From: a virus
DNA length: 37,276 bases
IMG/VR virus record: IMGVR_UViG_3300031565_000157
Coordinates: 1 to 37,276 of that record
Direction: 5' to 3' (one strand)
The notes beneath the pieces are model-generated. The model saw only the letters and a program-made list of their open reading frames with translations, was not told the DNA's origin and did not search any database. Each line of letters begins with the position of its first letter. Positions within the stretch are counted from its first letter, which is position 1. The position numbers and the translations under genes were made by a program. Positions 31,621 to 37,276 of the stretch are shown here, piece after piece.

Positions 31621-31771
31621 AATTTGGCAAAGGGTAGTCGGATTTTATCGCCCATTAAGTGAAGCCAATAAAGGGAAACAATCAGAAATAAAAGATAGAA
31701 AATTATTTGATGTAAACATGAAAAACAAAGAATATGATAGATGGAATAAAAAAAAGCTTGACAAGTTTTAA
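31568..31771 (+). CDS. Stand-alone glycyl-radical domain resembling the NrdD C-terminus
   Basis: 67 aa, ATG 31568 with AAAGAGG five bases upstream. Residues 17-43 read CEIWQRVVGFYRP then LSEANKGKQSEIKDRK. The same pattern ends class III (anaerobic) ribonucleotide reductases: RVxGY with the radical glycine, followed by an N-x-GKQ-E-x-K-x-R run. The rest of NrdD is absent here. It may repair or activate a host NrdD, in the way GrcA/YfiD serves pyruvate formate-lyase, or be a remnant. The C-terminal codons (KKLDKF) contain the duplicated promoter at 31758. Confidence 0.72.
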   Translation: MQEKIIEKKKNLLQIPCEIWQRVVGFYRPLSEANKGKQSEIKDRKLFDVNMKNKEYDRWNKKKLDKF

Positions 31772-31785
31772 GGTTCGTATATATT
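31751..31785 (+). repeat. 35-bp repeat carrying a promoter, copy 1
   Basis: Identical to 33749-33783. In both places it codes the last residues (KLDKF, stop) of the gene before and contains TTGACA (31758-31763), 16 bases, TATATT (31780-31785). It is followed in both copies by a base change and then AGTT. Confidence 0.9.
31758..31785 (+). promoter_or_regulatory. Promoter in front of a cassette-like gene (copy 1)
   Basis: TTGACA, 16-base spacer, TATATT. It reads into the core-like GTTGTGT at 31788 and then the gene at 31812, the same arrangement as at 33756. Confidence 0.78.
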
Positions 31786-31787
31786 TA

Positions 31788-31794
31788 GTTGTGT
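31788..31794 (+). promoter_or_regulatory. Integron core-like site (copy 1)
   Basis: GTTGTGT, one base from the core GTTRRRY. Its position relative to the promoter is close to that of GTTAGAT at 33786 (overlapping AGTT). The inverse partner ACATAAC at 32025 pairs with it except for one wobble position. Confidence 0.5.
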
Positions 31795-31811
31795 GAAAGG
31801 CGGTTTAAAGT

Positions 31812-32012
31812 ATGAAAATTAGAAAAATTAAAACTAAAGAAAGGGCTAATGGTATGAAGTATTGCACCTTTTGCAAGCCTGCCAGAGTTGACGCTGTATA
31901 TAGAGATTTAAACATGAAGTTTGCGTGTGAAGAACATAAGCATTTATTAACAGAGGATAATGATGACGGATATATGTCAGATGGTGATTATCAATCATGG
32001 GGCAGGCTTTAG
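31812..32012 (+). CDS. Cysteine-containing protein in a cassette-like unit
   Basis: 66 aa, MKIRKIKTKERANGMKYCTFCKPARVD ... KFACEEHKHLL; CxxC and a later CxxH form a probable zinc site. It lies between core-like GTTGTGT (31788) and inverse core ACATAAC (32025), as a cassette gene does. GGCGG serves as ribosome site. The inverted repeat GGGCAG/CTGCCC (32000-32005, 32016-32021) spans its stop. Function unknown. Confidence 0.65.
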   Translation: MKIRKIKTKERANGMKYCTFCKPARVDAVYRDLNMKFACEEHKHLLTEDNDDGYMSDGDYQSWGRL

Positions 32013-32024
32013 GAACTGCCCATC

Positions 32025-32042
32025 ACATAACAAAGATTAGAT
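32025..32042 (+). other. Collapsed attC (stem region missing)
   Basis: ACATAAC followed by AAAG, then directly ATTAGATGAAATAGAGG. The first part equals the left end of the attC sites at 34252 and 34826 (TAACAAAGA), the second equals the start of cassettes 1, 2 and 4 (TTAGATGAAAT, AGAGGTT). The imperfect palindrome between them, some 60 nt in the complete sites, is absent. It looks like an attC reduced by deletion. Confidence 0.55.
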
Positions 32043-32058
32043 GAAATAGAGGTTTAAA

Positions 32059-33616: not shown

Positions 33617-33769
33617 ATGTTAAAAGAATCTGGAATGGATGAAGTTTATTGCATGTGGTATTGCTGCCCTAAATGCGGTTATGACATGATAATGATATCG
33701 TTTAAATACTGTCCTAATTGCGGTGTTAAATTAAATGTTAAAAAAAATAAAAAGCTTGACAAGTTTTAA
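33617..33769 (+). CDS. 50-aa zinc-ribbon protein
   Basis: MLKESGMDEVYCMWYCCPKC... with CPKCGYD and CPNCGVK, a classic zinc ribbon. It ends KNKKLDKF, whose codons form the repeated promoter. The ribosome site AGGAG (33594) is distant; a five-codon GTG ORF at 33606 lies between, so coupling is possible. Confidence 0.65.
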   Translation: MLKESGMDEVYCMWYCCPKCGYDMIMISFKYCPNCGVKLNVKKNKKLDKF

Positions 33770-33783
33770 GGTTCGTATATATT
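33749..33783 (+). repeat. 35-bp repeat carrying a promoter, copy 2 (TTGACA / TATATT)
   Basis: Identical to 31751-31785. The promoter is TTGACA (33756-33761), 16 bases, TATATT (33778-33783). It reads straight into the cassette array, so it plays the part of an integron Pc promoter although no integrase is present. Confidence 0.9.
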
Positions 33784-33785
33784 CA

Positions 33786-33792
33786 GTTAGAT
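33786..33792 (+). promoter_or_regulatory. attI-like core site at the head of the cassette array
   Basis: GTTAGAT fits the core GTTRRRY exactly and follows the -10 box by two bases. It marks the left end of cassette 1; its complement ATCTAAC is at the start of attC1 (33980). Confidence 0.72.
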
Positions 33793-33808
33793 GAAATGGA
33801 GGCTAGAC

Positions 33809-33985
33809 ATGGTAAAATACAAAAAAGGCGACAGGGTTATTGTAGATAATGACAGGGTTGGAACTATTGTAAAATGTGAACAAGTCTACACGGCGGTCGT
33901 AGAGTTCGACCATGAGTATATAAGTTCTTCGCTTCGCTGTGTTGATAAGATGGAGGTTGAGCAAAACCGCCTCCACTTCATCTAA
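33809..33985 (+). CDS. Cassette 1 protein, SH3-like small barrel
   Basis: 58 aa from ATG 33809 with GGAGG upstream; an earlier in-frame ATG at 33791 overlaps the core site. MVKYKKGDRVIVDNDRVGTIVKCEQ ... AVVEFDHEY reads as a KOW/SH3-like barrel of five strands. The stop TAA lies in the inverse core of attC1. Function unknown; small barrel proteins often bind nucleic acid. Confidence 0.75.
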   Translation: MVKYKKGDRVIVDNDRVGTIVKCEQVYTAVVEFDHEYISSSLRCVDKMEVEQNRLHFI

Positions 33986-34059
33986 CAGCAATTAAACGGT
34001 TTCGCTCCGCTACATGCGAATCCACTTCGTGGACTTCGTTTAATTGCGGAACATTAGAT
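33980..34059 (+). repeat. attC site 1
   Basis: Inverse core ATCTAAC (33980-33986) and core ATTAGAT (34053-34059) frame an arm AGCAATTAAACG that pairs with CGTTTAATTGC, and a tip TCCAC-TTC-GTGGA. Size 80 bp. The core has A instead of the usual G at its first base, which may lower recombination. Confidence 0.82.
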
Positions 34060-34085
34060 GAAATAAAAATTAAAGAGTATTTACA

Positions 34086-34241
34086 ATGAGGACAGAATCC
34101 GAAATAAAAAAAGAAATTGCTGCTATGAAAAGAGATTTAGAGTTTATGGAAAAAAAGCCAATTCATAGTGAAGAGGCACGAGAGAACGCTATGTTTTGTC
34201 AGCGTCAAGTCATTAAAGTATTAGAATGGTGTGTAGAATAA
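34086..34241 (+). CDS. Cassette 2 protein, 51 aa
   Basis: ATG 34086, AAAGAG upstream. MRTESEIKKEIAAMKRDLEF ... EEARENAMFCQRQVIKVLEW is a helical coiled-coil hairpin. No known domain. It ends 10 bp before attC2. Confidence 0.72.
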   Translation: MRTESEIKKEIAAMKRDLEFMEKKPIHSEEARENAMFCQRQVIKVLEWCVE

Positions 34242-34251
34242 TTTTTACTTC

Positions 34252-34334
34252 ATCTAACAAAGAATATCTGGTTCAGCCTGTGGCTTCACCCAAACCGTGA
34301 GTACACGGCTTCAGATATTCTTGGAACGTTGTCG
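34252..34334 (+). repeat. attC site 2
   Basis: Inverse core ATCTAAC (34252-34258); arm AAGAATATCTG pairs with CAGATATTCTT; tip CCGTG-AGTA-CACGG; core GTTGTCG (34328-34334). Size 83 bp. The core departs from GTTRRRY, but its last six bases belong to cassette 3, whose own inverse core is CGACAAC, the exact complement. Confidence 0.85.
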
Positions 34335-34360
34335 GAAATAAGTTTTTAAAGGAGATAAAA

Positions 34361-34633
34361 ATGACAGAAGAAAGATGTAAACAAATTATGGAGCAACTTG
34401 GACAGCCTCATAGTAGGTCTTTAATGCAAGTAATTTTCCAAGTTGCAAACGAGACAGAGCAGGAAGTGAGAAAAAAACTTACATCCGACAACAGCGATTA
34501 TGAGGTTCAGCTAAAGGCTTCACCCAAATTGCCGAGTTTAGAAGATGTTATTGACGAAGTTTCAGACCATGTGCATCGAGAAACAATTAAGGAAACATAC
34601 TATGCAATACAACGACTCGGCAACTTCGCATAG
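34361..34633 (+). CDS. Cassette 3 protein, C-terminal half coded by the attC hairpin
   Basis: 90 aa, ATG 34361 after AAAGGAG. MTEERCKQIMEQLGQPHSRS ... TEQEVRKKLTSD is helical; from about residue 42 the frame passes through inverse core CGACAAC (34486) and on through the arm and loop of attC3, reading ...LPSLEDVIDEVSDHVHRETI..., to stop in the right arm (34631). Both halves look protein-like. Either the attC loop expanded by taking in coding DNA or the gene gained a mobile C-terminus. Confidence 0.72.
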   Translation: MTEERCKQIMEQLGQPHSRSLMQVIFQVANETEQEVRKKLTSDNSDYEVQLKASPKLPSLEDVIDEVSDHVHRETIKETYYAIQRLGNFA

Positions 34634-34648
34634 TAGCAAACGTTAAAT
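34486..34648 (+). repeat. attC site 3, very long, with a coding loop
   Basis: Inverse core CGACAAC (34486-34492), left part GGTTCAGC and GGCTTCACCCAAA as in attC2, then TTGCCGAGT (34529-34537), a 77-nt loop, ACTCGGCAA (34615-34623, perfect complement), CTTCGC as in attC4, and core GTTAAAT (34642-34648). Size 163 bp against 80-83 for the others. The lower arm pairs imperfectly (GCGATTATG with CATAGTAGC). Confidence 0.7.
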
Positions 34649-34664
34649 GAAATAGAGGTTAGAC

Positions 34665-34841
34665 ATGGAACCAGAAGAAAAGTTAGGTTTAAACAAAGCG
34701 TTAGATATTCTAAATAAAATTCAAAGGTTTGATTTATGTTGGCAACAGATGGATGAAACAAAAGACGGGGAGTTTGTTAGATATAGCGACATAAAGAGGT
34801 CTATTATAGAACTCCTCCAAACTTCATCTAACAAAGAATAA
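34665..34841 (+). CDS. Cassette 4 protein, 58 aa
   Basis: ATG 34665 with AGAGG upstream in the same head sequence as cassette 1. MEPEEKLGLNKALDILNKIQ ... WQQMDETKDGEF ... SIIELLQTSSNKE is mainly helical. Its last codons (TCA TCT AAC AAA GAA TAA) lie in attC4. Function unknown. Confidence 0.72.
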   Translation: MEPEEKLGLNKALDILNKIQRFDLCWQQMDETKDGEFVRYSDIKRSIIELLQTSSNKE

Positions 34842-34905
34842 GCGTTTCGCCTTCGGCTCTCCCAAATTGCCGTTGGCAACTTCGCTTATTCTCGGAACGT
34901 TATAC
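34826..34905 (+). repeat. attC site 4
   Basis: Inverse core ATCTAAC (34826-34832); arm AGAATAAGCG pairs with CGCTTATTCT; tip TTGCC-GTT-GGCAA; core GTTATAC (34899-34905). Size 80 bp. It shares CCCAAATTGCCG and GGCAACTTCGC with attC3. Confidence 0.85.
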
Positions 34906-34924
34906 AAAAATGAGAGGTGAATGA

Positions 34925-35119
34925 ATGGAAAAAATAGACGTTAAATCTGTACAAATGAGTTTAGAAGAACACCTCTCAACTATGGTAGAAGGAATTGAAC
35001 CAGATTGGGGCTGTATTGGAGAGTTTGATGAAGAAAGTGGTTTTGAACCTGAGTGGGACGAAATAGAACATAATAGTTGGGAATGTCACTCTTGTAACAA
35101 TGGACCTTGTTATCAATAG
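34925..35119 (+). CDS. Cassette 5 protein, acidic, cysteine at the C-terminus
   Basis: 64 aa, ATG 34925, GAGAGGTG upstream. MEKIDVKSVQMSLEEHLSTM..., very acidic centre (FDEESGFEPEWDEIEHN) and an end CHSCNNGPCYQ. It is the last gene of the array; no complete attC follows. Confidence 0.7.
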   Translation: MEKIDVKSVQMSLEEHLSTMVEGIEPDWGCIGEFDEESGFEPEWDEIEHNSWECHSCNNGPCYQ

Positions 35120-36878: not shown

Positions 36879-37229
36879 ATGAATATTAGCGGTGTTATGC
36901 ATAATTTTACAGAAGAACAATTAAGAGAAGCTATAAAGAATACTGATTCAGTTATAAGCAATTTAGCTATAAATTTAGATTGTGACTGGCATACTGCACG
37001 CCGATATTTAGATAAATTTCCTGAAGTCAAGACGGAATTTGTCCGAGAATCCGAAAAAACAAGCGATAAAGCAAAAAGAAATATATCTAAAGCAATTGAT
37101 GAAGGTGATTTAAATCTTAGTAAATGGTATTTAGAAAAAAATATAAATACTAATAACGAATTTTCAGATAAGATACAGCTTGAACATTCAGGAGACATTA
37201 AAGTAAATATAAATATAAATGAAATATGA
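36879..37229 (+). CDS. terS: Terminase small subunit
   Basis: 116 aa. An N-terminal helix-turn-helix (EEQLREAIKNTDSVISNLAINLDCDWHTARRYLDKFPEV) recognises packaging sites; a helical middle (SDKAKRNISKAIDEGDLNLSKWYLEK) suits oligomer formation; the end IQLEHSGDIKVNININEI has the EHSGD motif seen at the C-terminus of many small terminases. It overlaps terL by ATGA. An in-frame ATG at 36897 is a possible alternative start. Confidence 0.9.
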   Translation: MNISGVMHNFTEEQLREAIKNTDSVISNLAINLDCDWHTARRYLDKFPEVKTEFVRESEKTSDKAKRNISKAIDEGDLNLSKWYLEKNINTNNEFSDKIQLEHSGDIKVNININEI

Positions 37230-37276
37230 AAGAAATCAATACTGATTTTGACATACCTACAAAATTCAAGCCTATT
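37151..37276. repeat. Terminal direct repeat, right copy
   Basis: Same 126 bases as 2-127. Joining the copies restores intact small and large terminase genes and a circle of about 37,149 bp. Confidence 0.95.
37226..37276 (+). CDS. terL: Terminase large subunit, first 17 codons (rest at 77-1276)
   Basis: The ATG and first codons of the packaging ATPase, cut by the window end and identical to the start of the gene at 77. Not a second gene. Confidence 0.93.
   Translation, partial: MKEINTDFDIPTKFKPI

Follow-up and report, generated by a model that had tools for sequence, protein, structure and literature searches.

A row of short open reading frames and intervening hairpins in a phage genome raises the question of whether these units are integron-type cassettes and whether they are independently mobile. 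Integron cassettes move as circles, which are inserted and excised (PMC3053210), and it is established that in the circle the head of a cassette completes its own attC (PMC2674596). A match between head and inverse core within a cassette is standard knowledge and is relied on to distinguish real cassettes (PMC4909258, PMC6557892). The original prediction for this locus built on such a match: it held that heads and inverse cores covary within cassettes and not across junctions, and took this as evidence of independent mobility. Judging from the sequence anatomy, we argue that the locus is very probably an integrase-less (CALIN-like) array of a variant integron class in a caudovirus, situated behind promoter/attI-like sites and operating by the mechanism proposed below.

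The phage and its array

The DNA analyzed, called the window here, is an entire IMG/VR virus record of 37,276 bases. It encodes a large terminase, a portal, a possible major head protein, a DnaB-like helicase, a methyltransferase, and an amidase/endolysin, and because of the terminase, the portal, and other such genes, it can be assigned to a tailed phage. An identical 126 bases are found at both ends (1-127 and 37150-37276, with the preceding base differing), as expected of a complete circular or terminally redundant genome. Single-protein searches recovered no close phage relatives; in the TerL alignment, the closest TerL in Patescibacteria stands at 41% and those in IMG/VR at no more than 49%, and no attC sites are present in the examined DNA of these TerL relatives (at most 49%).

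All features of the array lie on the + strand. Four attC sites stand in tandem and in the same direction, with one short ORF each, and no integrase lies within reach across the whole 37-kb record, the combination by which a CALIN is recognized. A phmmer search with an array-linked recombinase (G003) as the query found no homolog of such enzymes among the window ORFs of at least 120 aa. The sites have RYYYAAC...G^TTRRRY cores with complementarity in the cassette's own circle, the exceptions being attC1 (A for G) and cassette 4 (one mismatch). Cassette 1 (33787-34053, 267 bp; head TTAGATGAAATGGAGGC) contains an ORF at 33791-33985 and an inverse core at 33980-33986, and its attC1 extends to 34053, where the cut has A in place of G, as is also the case in several Patescibacteria array sites. 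It is followed by cassette 2 (34054-34328, 275 bp; head TTAGATGAAATAAAAATTA; ORF 34086-34241), with an inverse core at 34252-34258 and attC2 reaching to G34328; cassette 3 (34329-34642, 314 bp; head TTGTCGGAAATAAGTTTTT; ORF 34361-34633), with the inverse core CGACAAC at 34486-34492 and its end at G34642; and cassette 4 (34643-34899, 257 bp; head TTAAATGAAATAGAGG; ORF 34665-34841), with an inverse core at 34826-34832 and attC4 reaching to G34899. The right flank (34900-35119; TTATACAAAAATG; ORF 34925-35119) has no matching tail and is therefore taken as the end of the array, being either phage sequence or a decayed cassette.

Under the covariance model R1, which was built from three phage sites (cassettes 1, 2, and 4, with cassette 3 and the upstream unit left out) and four Patescibacteria/Bacillota sites, attC1, attC2, and attC4 score 84.9, 80.2, and 75.2 bits, values that are not independent because the model was trained partly on the window; attC3, a nontraining sequence, scores weakly at 23.3 bits. 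It measures 150 nt from R'' to G, with an extra 80-nt insert relative to the other attC sites, and the cassette 3 ORF runs through most of it. With regard to the extrahelical base in the L stem of attC, the individual predicted folds of attC1, attC2, and attC4 have unbroken inner stems. No Rfam family fits, two matches falling far under the gathering score, and none of the cassette proteins of the window is named by Pfam.

Two near-equal stretches of 43 bases end directly at a G^TT junction and a cassette head (31788 and 33786). Copy A (31745-31788, repeat D1) comprises a promoter, TTGACA-16-TATATT (31758-31785), and an attI-like junction, TTCGTATATATTTA followed by G^TT; copy B (33743-33786) comprises a promoter at 33756-33783 and the attI-like junction TTCGTATATATTCA followed by G^TT. 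The latter resembles the sequences that lead into the first cassettes in arrays of Patescibacteria (TTCGGATAAAAATGA, TTCGCATAAAAACGA, and TTCGGATAATAAACTA), and TTCGNATA, located 10-12 nt before the phage junctions, resembles what precedes Patescibacteria first cassettes in a comparison of few sites. We tentatively interpret both junctions as promoter-attI sites. Strong promoter-like sites (11/12) number four within 3.5 kb of the + strand (31758, 33002, 33756, and 35180), and two near-identical copies among them adjoin cassette heads. Copy A leads into an upstream unit, u0 (31789-32036; head TTGTGTGAAAG, ORF 31812-32012, tail CCATCACATAAC), which is without an attC hairpin, there being just 5 nt from AAC to the next TT (window 32025-32042). 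The hairpin appears to have been lost by deletion, and the unit would then be locked where it stands. Behind u0 lies a further cassette-head motif, ATTAGATGAAATAGAGGTT (32036-32054), with no matching tail before cassette 1.

Matching of cassette ends within the window

As predicted, the head of cassette 3, TTGTCG (34329-34334, after G34328), is the exact complement of its own inverse core CGACAAC, and the u0 head GTTGTGT differs at one position from complementarity to its ACATAAC (32025-32031). The other cassettes had been said to combine TTAGAT with ATCTAAC; this is exact in cassettes 1 and 2, whereas cassette 4 has TTAAAT with ATCTAAC and hence one mismatch. Similarly, the absence of a match across junctions stands for tail 2/head 3, tail 3/head 4, and tail 4/right flank, but not for tail 1/head 2, which match because the cores of cassettes 1 and 2 are alike. 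Because three cassettes share nearly one core, statistics confined to the core are weak in the window: at the four free core positions, own pairing is equaled by 6 of 24 permutations for cassettes 1-4 and by 6 of 120 when u0 is included.

The core complementarity is real, but the 7-bp core on which the prediction focused is only part of it, since the complementarity takes the form of two boxes over 18-25 bp. In the window it continues to about 18-20 bp in cassette-specific sequence, with a fixed mismatch at position 11, giving the ~20-nt pairs GTTAGATGAAATGGAGGC/GCCTCCACTTCATCTAAC, TTAGATGAAATAAAAATTA/TAATTTTTACTTCATCTAA, and GTTGTCGGAAATAAGTTTTT/AAAAACTTACATCCGACAAC. Cassette 1 matches at 17 of the first 18 positions and cassette 2 at positions 2-10 and 12-20, and the cassette 3 tail AAAAACTTACATCCGACAAC (34473-34492) is complementary to 34328-34347 at 18 of 20. 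The head and tail of u0 show three matches, a mismatch, five matches, two mismatches, three matches, a mismatch, and three matches, in that order. The position-11 mismatch and the two-box plan are present in all five window units, and at positions 8-20 own pairing is the best of all 24 permutations and of all 120. The cassette ends also show up as inverted repeats I3 and I18, the latter in cassette 3. Across both strands of the 37 kb, the tail motif AC[AT]TCNNN[CT]AAC is present at just four places, all of them inverse cores within the array.

These observations bear on the possibility that the sites are duplicated hairpins or transcription terminators whose matches arose by chance. Two weak terminator-like stems do overlap attC1 and attC4 (2 found, 1.4 expected); yet the tail motif is confined to the array, the junctions lack covariation, and the permutation tests agree with the original view that such elements can hardly explain the covariation. 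The statistics in relatives, presented next, already refute this explanation, and we accord it practically no probability.

The two-box rule in host arrays

An initial pattern with both cores 50-80 bases apart found single sites in one Patescibacteria MAG and in several Bacillota. R1 sites are present in 38 of 286 Patescibacteria genomes and 20 of 299 Bacillota genomes, many of the host genomes being MAGs. The sites number 91 over the window and the fetched Patescibacteria loci, 106 in Bacillota, and 76 in Paenibacillaceae, and the densest clusters reach 12 sites per locus in Patescibacteria and, in one Paenibacillaceae genome, 25 sites within 19 kb (L184). Large arrays are seen in Patescibacteria, Clostridia-like Bacillota, and Paenibacillaceae loci (L161-L175, L229-L236, and L181-L188). 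The DNA of the phage array, searched against Patescibacteria, yielded no homolog or donor of its cassettes, the matches being at the level of attC only. Searching viral contigs for exact attC patterns produced nothing beyond chance hits within unrelated genes, and a 22-base pattern had zero matches in the genome contigs searched.

For the comparison of ends, cassettes were cut mechanically, from the G of one site to the next inverse core, with complementarity not consulted; because R1 rewards cross-junction pairing, detection was biased against the within-cassette claim being tested. This provided 206 cassettes: 59 from 12 Patescibacteria arrays, 63 from 7 Paenibacillaceae arrays, and 84 from 9 locus-level arrays of other Bacillota. 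At positions 4-7, the own match is 0.83 in Patescibacteria, 0.92 in Paenibacillaceae, and 0.87 in other Bacillota, versus 0.575, 0.60, and 0.60, respectively, with tails permuted within arrays. At positions 12-18, the corresponding values are 0.72, 0.83, and 0.73 versus 0.41, 0.41, and 0.375, and none of 5,000 within-array permutations attained the observed values in any of the three groups. Where neighboring cores are unlike, a cassette's own tail beats the junction mate 147 to 16 (43:4, 48:5, and 56:7). Across the 206 host cassettes, the within-cassette statistics are overwhelmingly positive and junction neighbors do not match; they uphold the proposal of integron-type cassettes that covary within and not across junctions.

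Position 11 behaves very differently from the boxes on either side of it: it matches at a rate of 0.08 in Patescibacteria, 0.00 in Paenibacillaceae, and 0.02 in other Bacillota, and in 142 of the 145 cassettes that pair well, the head has A and the tail C (denoted A/G). Beyond it, pairing stops at positions 17-18 in Paenibacillaceae (match of 0.56 at position 18 and 0.08 at 19) and fades toward position ~25 in Patescibacteria. The consensus of the ends is G^TTRnnnGA(A/C)A(T/G)nnnnnn ... nnnnnn(A/C)C(A/T)TCnnnYAAC. If the matching ends were a relic of cassette birth, for example by palindrome copying, and movement no longer needed them, the boxes should be cassette-specific without a common consensus, as birth or template-switch correction would give, and this is indeed what is seen. 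However, the fixed mismatch at position 11, together with the abrupt end of pairing at 18 in Paenibacillaceae, gives the impression of a recognition structure that is being maintained, and we consider such a relic quite improbable.

The imperfect terminal inverted repeats on each unit (I3 and I18) could also be read as the 18-25-bp terminal inverted repeats of transposon-like units mobilized by a transposase. Yet the repeats vary by unit whereas the boundary motif is constant, differing genes stand head to tail with a hairpin between them, the array heads carry tyrosine recombinases rather than transposases, and no target duplication is seen in the window; a transposon-like origin is, in our estimate, highly improbable. 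As for integron-type cassettes, homologous whole cassettes are found at differing array positions and in two Bacillota species (L230 2235 and L236 13322; 91.5% over 1,037 nt), a recurrence that may be taken as indirect support for cassette movement. Near-identical cassettes are repeated within arrays (L166 at 1596 and 4587; L231 at 8244 and 11708).

Proposed mechanism and the case for mobility

In the mechanism that we favor for these arrays, the inherited unit would extend from the T after the cut in G^TT through the G that ends its own attC. In a putative free circle, the head would directly follow its own attC, and head and tail would flank the hairpin and complete an outer stem; because the two would complete one and the same stem, they would have to match each other and not their neighbors. 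This stem would comprise two cassette-specific boxes, at positions 4-7 and 12-18 (to ~25 in Patescibacteria), surrounding a conserved GA and the fixed pair at position 11, with A in the head and C in the tail. The substrate would presumably be the folded bottom strand, with tail against head: at position 11, the top strand has an A.C clash where the bottom strand can form a T.G wobble, a difference that would favor the bottom strand. Folding energies computed for 186 host cassettes favor the circle form of the bottom strand over its array form in 181 of them and the bottom strand over the top in 176. Within the window, the circle is computed to stabilize the bottom strand of cassettes 2 and 3 by about 14 kcal/mol, and in cassette 3 the computed top strand is slightly better than the bottom. 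Insertion of the cassettes at the attI-like sites of the phage might be carried out by a host tyrosine recombinase of the array-linked type.

Identical within-cassette covariation would be predicted if, with no circle involved, the 5' and 3' transcript ends of each cassette paired as RNA for stability or translation control. The second box of cassette 1 includes the ribosome-site sequence GGAGG, and the wobbles among free mismatches favor neither strand (27 bottom-type versus 22 sense-type, p = 0.57), both of which would fit this explanation. It accords poorly, however, with the near-invariant position 11, which is A.C on the RNA strand and can form a T.G wobble solely in bottom-strand DNA, and with the prevalence of better folds on the bottom strand. 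Moreover, the boxes sit exactly at the recombination ends and extend the attC stem, and classical cassettes are likewise paired to position 12. We therefore regard RNA pairing as unlikely.

With integron-type cassettes as the preferred interpretation, the claim of independent mobility holds in part. The stretch from head to G is well accounted for as an inherited or mobile unit, but movement of these particular cassettes in the phage does not follow from this: the window has no array-type recombinase, attC1 has A for G, the unit at 31788 has lost its hairpin, and neither an excised circle nor an empty site was observed. We infer from their anatomy that the cassettes may be mobile in the phage.

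Array-linked recombinases and known integrons

The heads of the host arrays carry tyrosine recombinases related to IntI, oriented away from the array in Patescibacteria and toward it in Paenibacillaceae. In an alignment, the ~36-aa IntI insertion present in IntI1 and Vibrio IntIA is absent from six Patescibacteria and two Paenibacillaceae recombinases. The array-linked enzymes score 175-207 bits against the integron integrase model TIGR02249 (cut-off 265) and score best against recomb_XerA_Arch (NCBIfam NF040815), at 202-223 bits (cut-off 220). Despite this likeness to Xer/XerA, they stand at array heads and, in a small tree, fall together with IntI, apart from E. coli XerD and two other recombinases (100/99). 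The IntI-specific domain has been named as a defining feature of IntI (PMC9668308), and by this criterion the host arrays are not integrons, because their recombinases lack the insertion; nevertheless, they resemble integrons and presumably work like them.

Classical integrons, both class 1 with IntI1 and those of Vibrio, are similar in the extent of the cassette, from the T of G^TT to the next G, in the RYYYAAC/GTTRRRY cores, in one small ORF per cassette, and in a hairpin attC with the bottom strand favored; their IntI proteins have the specific insertion, which the array-linked recombinases lack. Class 1 cassettes also have own complementarity beyond the core, which in roughly three quarters of them continues unbroken through position 12 and is 0.00 at 13 (11 cassettes), and in Vibrio own pairing extends to about position 10 (4 cassettes). 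Pairing past the 7-base core is therefore not peculiar to the new type. In contrast to class 1, the window cassettes are mismatched at 11 and resume pairing from 12 to 17-20; the fixed mismatch and the second box are what is peculiar to the new type, as measured against a small, partly redundant control of named class 1 junctions (some repeated between plasmids) and a few Vibrio junctions. An automatic attC caller for classical integrons proved too noisy and was replaced by these named junctions. In L191-L193, the heads of class 1 resistance cassettes match their own tails as far as position 12, with no match at 13 in any of them. The chromosomal integrons of Treponema (Wu et al. 2013, PMC3607928) are comparable in having AT-rich hosts, long attC sites, and head/inverse core complementarity (PMC4909258); their integrase direction, toward the array, is shared by Paenibacillaceae arrays and is the opposite of that in Patescibacteria.

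Tailed phages with attC sites and integrase-less cassettes have been described in 17 cases (Qi et al. 2023, PMC9892861), in phages of Vibrio, Shewanella, Tetrasphaera, Polaribacter, Pseudoalteromonas, and others, and some phage attC sites recombine with attI1 (PMC9892861). The present phage differs from these in having another attC type, with a model of its own, and attI-like/promoter sites. Thus, the completion of its own attC by the head in the circle and the existence of phage cassettes (2023) are already known. The second box with its invariant mismatch and the array-linked recombinases without the IntI-specific domain appear to be new, with priority uncertain: in the searchable literature, with subscription papers and preprints lying outside it, we found no description of either or of integrons in Patescibacteria or large Paenibacillaceae arrays. 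Integrons have been described as rare in Bacillota, the IntegronFinder 2.0 survey having turned up a single complete integron among Firmicutes, along with a few CALINs (PMC9024848).

Other viral contigs and implications

A motif pattern independent of the cores gave four matches in viral contigs, and all four contigs contain matching-end cassettes, in which the best own head matches at 16-18 of 18 positions and the runner-up at 9-13. Tail tube genes beside the array in two of them (L243 and L245) identify two further tailed-phage contigs. L243 (IMGVR_UViG_3300014208_000003) is a 158-kb phage contig whose two-box cassette adjoins genes for the tail tube, nicotinamide phosphoribosyltransferase, NAD synthetase, and a NUDIX protein. 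Another contig classed as a virus, L246 (IMGVR_UViG_3300000568_000548), carries a recombinase and a long array of at least six cassettes and may be bacterial integron DNA rather than a virus.

On balance, we lean slightly toward a broader scenario in which these arrays represent a second integron branch, spanning Bacillota, Patescibacteria, and phages. Its integrase would lack the IntI domain, the second pairing box with its invariant bottom-strand T.G at position 11 would take over part of site recognition or strand choice, and phages with promoter-attI sites would act as cassette shuttles. If these arrays prove active, a large gene-capture system has escaped notice because integrons are recognized by a domain that its enzyme does not have. 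The two-box rule offers a simple sequence signature for cassettes in any genome, one that marks their boundaries to the base and that yielded two more tailed phages at one try. It also opens to testing the question of how site and strand are chosen by an integrase that lacks the extra domain. Finally, phages with such cassettes would be vehicles for them between hosts.
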